A DNA stretch of 34,157 nt, taken from Candidatus Meridianibacter frigidus. Its GTDB lineage: Bacteria; Vulcanimicrobiota; Vulcanimicrobiia; Vulcanimicrobiales; Vulcanimicrobiaceae. The translations under genes and the position numbers were made by a program. Below the pieces are notes generated by a model. That model had not been told where the DNA came from. It saw nothing but the letters and a program-made list of their open reading frames with translations, and made no database searches. The stretch spans positions 1-34,157 of the forward strand of contig QHBJ01000028.1 in the NCBI GenBank assembly GCA_003243975.1. Reading direction: 5' to 3'. Each line of letters begins with the position of its first letter. Position 1 is the stretch's first letter. Below, piece after piece: positions 25,297 to 27,252 of this stretch.

Positions 25297-25312
25297 CAGC
25301 AAAGGAGACAAC

Positions 25313-25975
25313 GTGGCCACCAAAGATCATCGCCTCGCCATCGAAACGCGCGAGGGAATCGGCACGACCAAAGCGCACGCGCTTCGCAGCGCCGGCAAGA
25401 TTCCCGCCATTCTGTACGGCCACGGCTCGCAAACGCAGCACGTTGCCTTCGAAGCCAAGGCATTCGAGGAGCTGCTGCACCACGGCGCGCGCAACGCGCT
25501 CATCACGCTAACCATGAGCGGCAAGAACAGCGATACGGCGTTGGTGCGCGATATCCAACGCGATCCCGTCACGCGCAAGGTCATTCACGCCGACCTGCAA
25601 CGCGTCTCGGCCACCGAGGAAGTAACGACCAAACTTCCCGTAGTCACGGTCGGCAGCGCCTTGGGCGTTCGCGAATTTGGCGGAGTGCTCGACGTCATTC
25701 TGCATGAGCTCGAGGTCGCGGGCCCGGCAAACAAACTTCCCGGCGAGATTGAAATCGACGTAACCGAACTTGGAATTCACGATCACATCAATGCCGCCGA
25801 TATCAAACTGCCGCAAGACTTCAAGATGGTAACGCCGCCCGAAACGGTGGTCGTGGCCGTCGAGCCATCCAAGACAGCAGCACAGGTTGAGGAGGCCGCT
25901 ACCGTCCCGGTCGAGCAGGCCGAGCCCGAAATCATCGGCGAGAAACCGGAAGAGCCCGCCGAAACGGCTTCCTAG
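25313..25975 (+). CDS. rplY: 50S ribosomal protein L25, CTC/TL5 form
   Basis: Binds 5S rRNA in the large subunit. It is 220 residues. The N-terminal L25 domain (about 1-95) contains RSAGKIPAILYG and VRDIQRDPVTRKVIHADLQRV. The C-terminal TL5 beta domain (about 100-190) has GGVLDVILHELEVAGPANKLP. An acidic Glu/Pro-rich tail follows. The start is GTG at 25313 with a strong AAAGGAG site. The TAG at 25973-25975 is followed without any further stop, in the same frame, by pth. The prs-rplY-pth order is widespread in bacteria. Confidence 0.96.
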   Translation: MATKDHRLAIETREGIGTTKAHALRSAGKIPAILYGHGSQTQHVAFEAKAFEELLHHGARNALITLTMSGKNSDTALVRDIQRDPVTRKVIHADLQRVSATEEVTTKLPVVTVGSALGVREFGGVLDVILHELEVAGPANKLPGEIEIDVTELGIHDHINAADIKLPQDFKMVTPPETVVVAVEPSKTAAQVEEAATVPVEQAEPEIIGEKPEEPAETAS

Positions 25976-26569
25976 CTGTTCAAAAGAAACCCGCCGGCGC
26001 AAGACGCAACCCGTCTTGTTGCCGGCTTGGGAAATCCCGGAAACGAGTACGCGCAAACCCGGCACAATGTCGGGTTTATGGTTGTCGACGAATTGGCCAA
26101 ACGTTGGCACCTTACCGCGTGGAAGAGCAAGCACGATGCGCAACAGGCGATGTTCGCTCCGCAACGGGCACTCCTCGTCAAGCCGACCAAGTTTATGAAC
26201 AGCAGCGGCATTCCGATCAAGTTGATCGCTCATTTCTACCGTATCGAGCCGGCCGGCATCTTGGTCATTACGGACGATGTGGATCTGCCCTTCGGGCGCC
26301 TGCGCATGCGACCGGGCGGCGGACACGGCGGGCATAACGGCTTGCGCTCGGTCATCGCGATGCTGGACGAAGACTTTCCACGTCTGCGCGTCGGAATCGG
26401 GCGCCCCGAATATGAAACGGTGGATCACGTATTGACCACCTTCAATGGGCCGGAGCGCGCGAAACTTCAGGAGATCATCGATGCCGCGGCCGACGGCGCG
26501 GAGCGCTGGCTTGCCAGCGGAATCGAATTGGCAATGAATTTCGTTAATAAGAAAGAACAGTCGCAATAG
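25976..26569 (+). CDS. pth: peptidyl-tRNA hydrolase (non-canonical start)
   Basis: Releases peptides from prematurely dropped peptidyl-tRNA. Family marks are GLGNPGNEY with the substrate-binding Asn, TRHNVGF with catalytic His, KPTKFMNSSG, ITDDVDLPFGRLRMRPGGGHGGHNGL, and RVGIGRP. The start is unusual. The only NTG codon after the family's first strand begins is TTG at 26027, at the Leu of GLGNPG, which would delete strand beta-1. Yet RLVAGLGNPG is encoded in frame just before it, and the frame is open back to CTG at 25976, directly after the rplY TAG. I give the CTG start. Alternatives are the TTG, TAG readthrough from rplY, or a base error. No Shine-Dalgarno is seen at either site. Confidence 0.88.
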   Translation: MFKRNPPAQDATRLVAGLGNPGNEYAQTRHNVGFMVVDELAKRWHLTAWKSKHDAQQAMFAPQRALLVKPTKFMNSSGIPIKLIAHFYRIEPAGILVITDDVDLPFGRLRMRPGGGHGGHNGLRSVIAMLDEDFPRLRVGIGRPEYETVDHVLTTFNGPERAKLQEIIDAAADGAERWLASGIELAMNFVNKKEQSQ

Positions 26570-26589: not shown

Positions 26590-27252
26590 TTGAGCGCATT
26601 TGCCGGCAAAGCATTCGTGGTCCGGCTCGACGAGACGAGCGCGGGAGATCGTAGCACTCTTATCTCCGACTTGACTTTCCTAGTCGAACATCAAGTCTAC
26701 CCCATTGTCATCGCACCCAACGCGGATGCAGCTCGCGCATTGGTGCGGACCATCAATCGTTCCGGGAATTCGGCAGTCGGGCTCTCCGGAGCAGATGCGG
26801 CGATGCTGCCTGGCGCCGCCAACGGCCTGGGTAACGTCCAGGCGGGGATACTGCATACCCTCATGGGGGGCGGCTATATCCCGGTGGTGGAACCCACGAC
26901 CTTCAGCGCGTTCGGCGATGATGTGGCAGTAGCAGCCGACGACGTAGCGCAGGCCATCGCCAGCGCAACCGACGCTGTTCGGGCGATCTTCTTTCACGCG
27001 CTCGGCGGCGTGCCGGATCCCCACACCGCGCAGTTAATTTCGGAACTCACCGCCGCCGAAGCACTGGACATCGCCGAACAGGCGAACGTCCCTATCGATC
27101 TGCGCACCGCCATTCGCGCCGCCGCCCTCGGGGTTCGCTCGGGTGTGGGCGCGGCGCAAATTGTCGACGGCCGCGTCGCTCACGCCACCATCGTCGAATT
27201 GTTGACGACGAGACATCTGGGCACGCAAGTAACGGGCGGCGTCTATTTTTGA
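26590..27252 (+). CDS. acetylglutamate-kinase-like (ArgB/AAK fold) protein, degenerate
   Basis: Residues 51-220 follow acetylglutamate kinase closely: LVRTINRSGNSAVGLSGADA, ILHTLMGGGYIPVVEP, a LISELTAAEAL block, VRSGVGAAQIVDGR and HATIVELLTTRHLGTQV. The catalytic N-terminus is lost: the KxGG strand is VRLDETSAG, the substrate HGGG loop is IAPNAD, and the lysine before the C-terminal helix (GMIPKV in ArgB) is replaced (PIDLRTAI). It is 220 residues against the usual 260-300. It is probably not a normal kinase; it could bind an amino acid or nucleotide as a sensor, or phosphorylate something else. The TTG start at 26590 has a good AAGGAG site, so it appears translated. It lies downstream of pth, away from any arg gene in the window. 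Confidence 0.7.
   Translation: MSAFAGKAFVVRLDETSAGDRSTLISDLTFLVEHQVYPIVIAPNADAARALVRTINRSGNSAVGLSGADAAMLPGAANGLGNVQAGILHTLMGGGYIPVVEPTTFSAFGDDVAVAADDVAQAIASATDAVRAIFFHALGGVPDPHTAQLISELTAAEALDIAEQANVPIDLRTAIRAAALGVRSGVGAAQIVDGRVAHATIVELLTTRHLGTQVTGGVYF

Follow-up and report, generated by a model that had tools for sequence, protein, structure and literature searches.

Peptidyl-tRNA hydrolase genes without a canonical start codon beside the rplY stop in Candidatus Meridianibacter frigidus and its relatives

The gene for peptidyl-tRNA hydrolase (pth) in Candidatus Meridianibacter frigidus has no in-frame ATG, GTG or TTG between the stop codon of the preceding gene, rplY, and the conserved N-terminus of its product, and such a codon is likewise absent between the rplY stop and the first β-strand in 81 of the 111 pth loci that we read. 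The lack of a canonical pth start is real, extends beyond this genome and is not a product of chance. In the reading that we consider probable, pth is translated by coupled termination-reinitiation at a weak, non-canonical codon by the rplY stop, which in the window would be the CTG at 25976. The window is the whole stretch of DNA analysed here, 34,157 nucleotides of contig QHBJ01000028.1, and the parts of its rplY-pth junction are as follows.

25301-25307, + strand: Shine-Dalgarno sequence of rplY, AAAGGAG, 5 nt before its GTG (direct reading)
25313-25975, + strand: rplY (bL25/CTC, with a TL5 C-terminal domain), GTG start; PF01386 84.7 bits, PF14693 79.3 bits, TIGR00731 150.1 bits
25973-25975, + strand: TAG stop codon of rplY, with pth in the same frame (direct reading)
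25976-25978, + strand: CTG abutting the TAG, most likely the start codon of pth; the sole codon in the linker with a single mismatch to ATG
25976-26014, + strand: linker of 13 codons from the rplY stop to strand β1, without ATG, GTG or TTG
25976-26569, + strand: pth, peptidyl-tRNA hydrolase, 197 codons if CTG 25976 is the start; stop codon at 26567-26569
25993-26026, + strand: inverted repeat of 14 bp with one bulge; z of -3.8 over the 70 nt that follow the stop
26015-26029, + strand: start of strand β1 (LVAGL), containing TTG 26027, the first in-frame canonical start codon

Reading the window directly, we find, as an earlier sequence-only reading had stated, that the frame of rplY continues past its TAG into pth and stays open from 25976 through to the stop at 26567-26569. 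It begins CTG TTC AAA AGA AAC CCG CCG GCG CAA GAC GCA ACC CGT CTT, with no canonical start codon from the upstream stop to the conserved N-terminus. The earlier reading had named CTG 25976 as the only candidate upstream and had noted the want of a Shine-Dalgarno sequence there, and both points hold: no other linker codon is one mismatch from ATG, and the best pairing among 9-base windows ending 0-8 nt upstream of the CTG is -1.7 kcal/mol. Because the window has no Shine-Dalgarno sequence at this point, a start at CTG 25976 would depend on coupling alone. The CTG directly follows the TAG, the arrangement of a termination-reinitiation pair, in which the start overlaps the upstream stop or lies a few nucleotides from it. 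No other startless frame-0 locus of family f1 has as long a linker as the window; in family f3, L047 equals it and L049 exceeds it.

The product is a full-length member of the Pth1 family, scoring above the cut-off in both PF01195 (213.4-213.6 bits, over positions 1-183 of a 183-position profile) and TIGR00447 (191.6 bits, cut-off 100). The PF01195 match begins at profile position 1, which corresponds to 26015, and TTG 26027 lies four residues inside it. Translation from 26027 would thus remove part of strand β1, which speaks against the true N-terminus at 26027 that had earlier been entertained. It had also been claimed that RLVAGLGNPG as a whole is encoded ahead of this TTG; RLVAG (26012-26026) does precede it, but the TTG is itself the Leu codon of GLGNPG. 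The genome that contains the window (1.95 Mb, 43 contigs, 96% complete) has a single copy of pth, with no second peptidyl-tRNA hydrolase detected by PF01195 or PF01981 (PTH2). No odd initiator tRNA was found there by ARAGORN, in whose output the three Met tRNA genes share the anticodon CAT; it was run on 30 loci for 35 tRNA matches, and of the other five matches two lay inside neighbours' loci and three were left out.

We found pth in 108 of 117 genomes of the same class and matches in four phylum-level relatives, three of which were read, the fourth (G059) being a fragment at a contig end. With one locus read per genome, this gives the total of 111 (108 of the same class and three of the same phylum). 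Positions were counted from residue 0, the position of the β1 motif, which is present there in all 111 loci. When residue 0 itself is included, 77 loci still have no canonical codon, four of the 81 having one exactly at residue 0, and 79 of the 81 lack one all the way back to the previous in-frame stop. At least one startless pth occurs in 37 of 47 genera.

In 107 of the 111 loci, no more than 54 nt separate the rplY stop from residue 0. We call these coupled, meaning that rplY is within 70 nt, a limit that was chosen after inspecting the data. Startless loci make up 73 of the 92 coupled loci in family f1, all three in f2, five of ten in f3 and neither of the two coupled outgroup loci. The other 26 of the 107 coupled loci carry an ATG, GTG or TTG 2-13 codons before residue 0, and in seven of these the start codon overlaps or follows the rplY stop. 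The four uncoupled loci (L038, L054, L056 and L059) carry ATG or GTG without exception, whereas a canonical start is present in 26 of the 107 coupled loci (Fisher p 0.0046, for coupling as defined by the limit above). Far relatives (Megamonas, Gilliamella, an alphaproteobacterium and an Oxalobacteraceae) have an ATG no more than seven codons from β1 in four of four cases. Two single loci deserve mention. In L038 (G021, genus g22), whose pth starts with ATG, no neighbouring rplY was found. In L110 (G114, genus g8), pth has a doubled β1 motif, LLVVGLGNPA followed by LIAGLGNPG; this locus was counted as canonical, but its GTG sits in the first copy of the motif, so that it may be startless too.

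Relative to rplY, pth is in frame -1 in 59 of the coupled loci, in frame 0 in 44 and in frame +1 in four, and rplY ends in a stop codon in all 107. At least 21 changes of frame are found on a tree of L25 plus Pth, a quick tree with many open forks built on 106 rows with an assigned frame, L111 being left out. For L087, an alternative rplY stop beyond the pth start was set aside and the original stop kept. The frame shared by rplY and pth is a trait of this genome and not of the phenomenon. According to PMC10666635, the usual start codons rule out overlaps of 2 and 5 nt, with ATT as an exception for 5 nt; a scarcity of the +1 frame is therefore expected if the start sits at the rplY stop.

Several observations point to initiation at that stop. 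(i) Pairing with the anti-Shine-Dalgarno sequence in startless -1-frame loci of f1 is strongest 6 nt before the stop-adjacent codon, with a value of -4.8 kcal/mol; at this position 48% of 44 loci reach -4.5 kcal/mol or lower, compared with 5-18% at 60-12 nt upstream. In startless frame-0 loci of f1, the peak is -4.6 kcal/mol at 3 nt (59% of 27 loci); other positions 60-9 nt upstream give 4-26%, but there is a second peak of 41-44% at 51-54 nt. About half of the startless relatives have a Shine-Dalgarno sequence aimed at the stop-adjacent codon. (ii) The base before the stop is A, giving ATA, in 27 of 47 startless -1-frame loci versus three of 31 frame-0 loci (p 1.6e-5). Relatedness is accounted for in these p values only by genus votes: with one vote per genus and frame the counts are 12/23 versus 1/15 (p 0.005), and in f1 alone 11/22 versus 1/11 (p 0.027). 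Two loci, L111 and L058, both with canonical starts, were left out of the Shine-Dalgarno, base-preference and NTG analyses and of the stop-codon counts given below. (iii) Among the 38 frame-0 loci of f1, NTG is the first codon after the stop in 12 (ten CTG and two TTG, from seven genera) and the second in six; at codon 3 it occurs in one of 36, together with seven ATC, and it is found at neither codon 4 (0/36) nor codon 5 (0/35). The TAG-CTG of the window belongs to this CTG-after-stop kind. (iv) In four startless loci, L013, L075, L096 and L102, a stop in the pth frame lies within three codons upstream of the ATA.

Translation of the linker would leave its mark on codon positions, and here the support is real in some genera but weak overall. 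Differences between same-length linkers within genera fall on the three positions in a total of 115/87/164. The pattern is strong in g24 (24/0/57), is seen also in g38 (0/0/4) and g6 (0/0/2), and is weak or missing in g36 (54/53/71), g8 (27/28/22), a second g36 pair (4/6/4) and g33 (6/0/4).

The window linker also contains the hairpin at 25993-26026, whose first paired base is at +18 from the C of CTG 25976. It could, speculatively, hold a ribosome with the CTG in the P site. A conserved downstream hairpin was considered as a general feature and rejected: the 70 nt after the rplY stop have a mean z of -0.77 over 107 loci, 17 of them below -2, and the window stem is unique among 15 loci, with no counterpart in the 14 others compared. 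In most of the 15 low-z loci that were inspected out of the 17, the main stem falls within the GLGNPG codons. When the junction stretches of three loci were folded, z was low in the window only (-2.9, versus 1.2 in L018 and -0.2 in L062).

Coupled termination-reinitiation, one of three options offered by the sequence-only reading, is the best supported of them. Ribosomes terminating on rplY, the upstream cistron, would be delivered to pth and would re-initiate either at a codon overlapping the stop (NTA or NTG, in the -1 frame) or within three codons after it (CTG or ATC, in frame 0), often with the aid of a Shine-Dalgarno sequence within the last rplY codons. The non-canonical start would presumably be read by fMet-tRNA and repressed by IF3, as infC and sigR are elsewhere; by analogy with those genes, the pth start codon is probably sensitive to IF3. 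PMC5472188 describes IF3 as a repressor of non-canonical starts and of sigR and as autoregulating infC, and in an E. coli reporter described in PMC2268962, overproduced IF3 lowered re-initiation almost threefold. RRF and RF3 promote peptidyl-tRNA drop-off, the source of the substrate of Pth (PMC10192219, as there summarized). From the weak, coupled start we infer that Pth is tied to initiation stringency and recycling; Pth, together with IF3 and perhaps S1, would then be tuned by initiation stringency. The arrangement suggests that pth output may be kept low or adjustable.

Some loci fit this scheme less well. Among the 106 coupled loci in which near-cognate codons were counted (L111, with a canonical start, was left out), eight startless ones have no codon one mismatch from ATG anywhere from the stop through residue 0. 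They comprise five of seven genomes of genus g25, in which a Shine-Dalgarno sequence is followed by GTA AAA CTC, and three genomes of g36 in which the stop is followed by CCG or GTC. At codon 1, three genomes of g36 show CCG and their sisters CTG, so that the pth start codon is not strictly conserved. The eight loci would use either double-mismatch codons, for which the GTC start of sigR reported in PMC5472188 is a precedent, or a codon-independent restart. The efficiency of the ATA overlaps also needs to be considered. At a UAAUG overlap without a Shine-Dalgarno sequence in E. coli with active RRF, changing AUG to AUA is reported to drop downstream reading from 24.7% to 0.4% (PMC9955659), so that ATA overlaps are, on that account, poor starts in E. 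coli. Many of the ATA loci here do have a Shine-Dalgarno sequence, and weak output may be the point.

These same eight loci, together with the CTG/CCG swaps between sisters and the dominance of frames 0 and -1, would also be expected if no start codon were needed at all, that is, if unrecycled ribosomes at the rplY stop resumed on whatever codon lies at or beside it and Pth output read out recycling. There is some precedent in E. coli, where, as PMC9955659 describes it, ribosomes restart once RRF activity is lost, using every frame in vivo at high temperature and the stop frame in vitro, and where a UAAua junction still gives 2.2% over all frames when RRF is active. We nevertheless regard such restart as unlikely in the loci studied here: the enrichment of NTG at codons 1-2, the A before the stop and the Shine-Dalgarno peak all run against it, indicating that in many genomes it matters which codon is present and where, and RRF is present in 60 of the 61 genomes searched. 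A bolder version, in which pth has shed its need for a start codon, restarts on any codon at or beside the rplY stop, rises when recycling or initiation stringency falls and forms a small regulon with the translation genes infC (ATA) and rpsA (ATC), all tuned by the stringency of initiation, draws on the restart without a canonical codon that PMC9955659 describes after stops in E. coli lacking RRF activity. We judge it to be rather unlikely; if true, the rise in Pth would coincide with conditions that also disturb peptidyl-tRNA metabolism.

The remaining alternatives place initiation elsewhere or remove the problem. A start downstream, at residue 0 or inside β1 on ATC, GTG or TTG, would give Pth a short N-terminus; many loci do have ATC at residue 0, and four of the 81 startless ones have a canonical codon there, but the 77 others, among 107 coupled loci, do not, the window would have to use a TTG four residues into the PF01195 match, several linkers change like codons, and the Shine-Dalgarno and base preferences point to the stop. 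This makes a downstream start very doubtful. An L25-Pth fusion, made by readthrough of the rplY stop in frame 0 or by -1 frameshifting there, had been another of the options raised for the window, where the two genes share a frame and a strong hairpin begins 17 nt after the TAG; moreover, frames 0 and -1 are precisely those that readthrough and a -1 shift would serve. It is most improbable across the lineage. Programmed readthrough or frameshifting would show a conserved frame relation and, in some members, both genes in a single frame; the frame relation here is not conserved, and a fused frame occurs in none of the 107 coupled loci. All three stop codons are used among the 43 frame-0 loci counted (TAG 26, TAA 15, TGA 2), L013, L075, L096 and L102 would need the shift to occur in the last few codons, the window hairpin has no counterpart in the 14 loci compared with it, and a Shine-Dalgarno peak located at the stop favours initiation. 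The third option, a sequencing or assembly error that deleted a start codon, might be suspected, the genome being a draft in 43 contigs. That 80 further loci, all in different genomes, are startless as well excludes a base error as the explanation and leaves it only a negligible probability.

A non-canonical start is not confined to pth in this lineage. The start codon of infC is ATA in 46, ATC in two and ATT in two of 50 loci. A canonical codon lies further upstream in the open frame in 26 of these, so that the reading of the infC start rests on homology and on the Shine-Dalgarno sequence, which at proper spacing is usual for infC in the lineage without being strictly required, and which is missing at pth in the window. 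The gene for ribosomal protein S1, rpsA, was read in 49 of 50 loci and starts with ATC in 39, ATA in two and ATT in three; for the remaining five the alignment begins at another position, and two f3 loci among them have ATG. In 38 of the 49, the frame is free of canonical codons as far as the upstream stop. In the genome of the window, both genes are on contig C22, infC with ATA (L257) and rpsA with ATC (L277). By comparison, frr, taken as a control, has a canonical codon at the start in all 30 loci read (60 genomes have a match). Examples of the non-canonical-start set are the following.

L146:9885-10445 (G066): infC
L143:14547-15701 (G066): rpsA

In a survey of ortholog pairs from 370-400 kb of each of four genomes, 38 of 400 had no canonical codon near the onset of coding in either member, versus 59 of 400 at control positions inside genes, a background too high for a clean genome-wide rate. 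Thirteen flagged open reading frames were read, among which infC and rpsA were recognised by eye, and the copies in the genome of the window were confirmed by Pfam and NCBIfam. Because this search was not exhaustive, pth, infC and rpsA are a lower bound for the startless genes.

Non-canonical starts and termination-reinitiation are both known, and we met no account of their combination as a lineage-wide rule for pth in the literature searched; nor did the titles and abstract openings covered mention pth or rpsA as having a non-canonical start. The closest likeness is infC, a translation gene whose AUU/AUC start serves autoregulation by IF3 in E. coli and Streptomyces, as summarized in PMC5472188. 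In contrast, pth encodes a different enzyme, lies behind rplY and has a variable start (ATA, GTA, CTG or ATC) tied to the upstream stop; the infC of the present lineage itself uses ATA, unlike the ATT and ATC quoted there for E. coli and Streptomyces. The IF3-repressed sigR of Streptomyces (PMC5472188) resembles pth in starting with a codon other than ATG, GTG or TTG, in its case GTC, and hence in being misannotated, but in the account given there its start is not tied to an upstream stop, as that of pth appears to be by the close spacing of rplY described above. It is on this likeness to infC and sigR that control of pth by IF3 would rest. At the ATGA and TAATG overlaps discussed in PMC6728339 and PMC10666635, stop and start overlap or adjoin in the same frames as here and coupling has been proposed; the start codons there are ATG or GTG, whereas the overlapping codon of pth is mostly ATA or GTA (ATAA, ATAG, GTAA, GTAG), or a CTG follows the stop. 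RRF-deficient E. coli, as described in PMC9955659, likewise restarts at or beside a stop without a canonical start, but does so because RRF is lost, whereas the present arrangement is widespread in genomes that, with one exception among those searched, have RRF.

According to PMC10192219, pth is essential in E. coli and other bacteria. An essential gene without ATG, GTG or TTG in 37 genera breaks the rule that underlies annotation, and gene callers are expected to truncate or miss Pth in these genomes. The loci also provide a natural series (ATA, GTA, CTG and CCG at one stop, with and without a Shine-Dalgarno sequence) with which the needs of a re-initiating ribosome could be probed. Taken with infC and rpsA, they suggest control of several translation genes by the stringency of initiation, which would extend the infC and sigR cases.

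The gene that follows pth in the window (26590-27252) has a TTG start and a weak argB-like match below the cut-off, and no Pfam family was assigned to it. Six of 58 relatives lack a canonical start for this gene (L028, L069, L073, L092, L019 and L048), and in some of these a strong Shine-Dalgarno sequence stands ahead of a CTG or an ACG.
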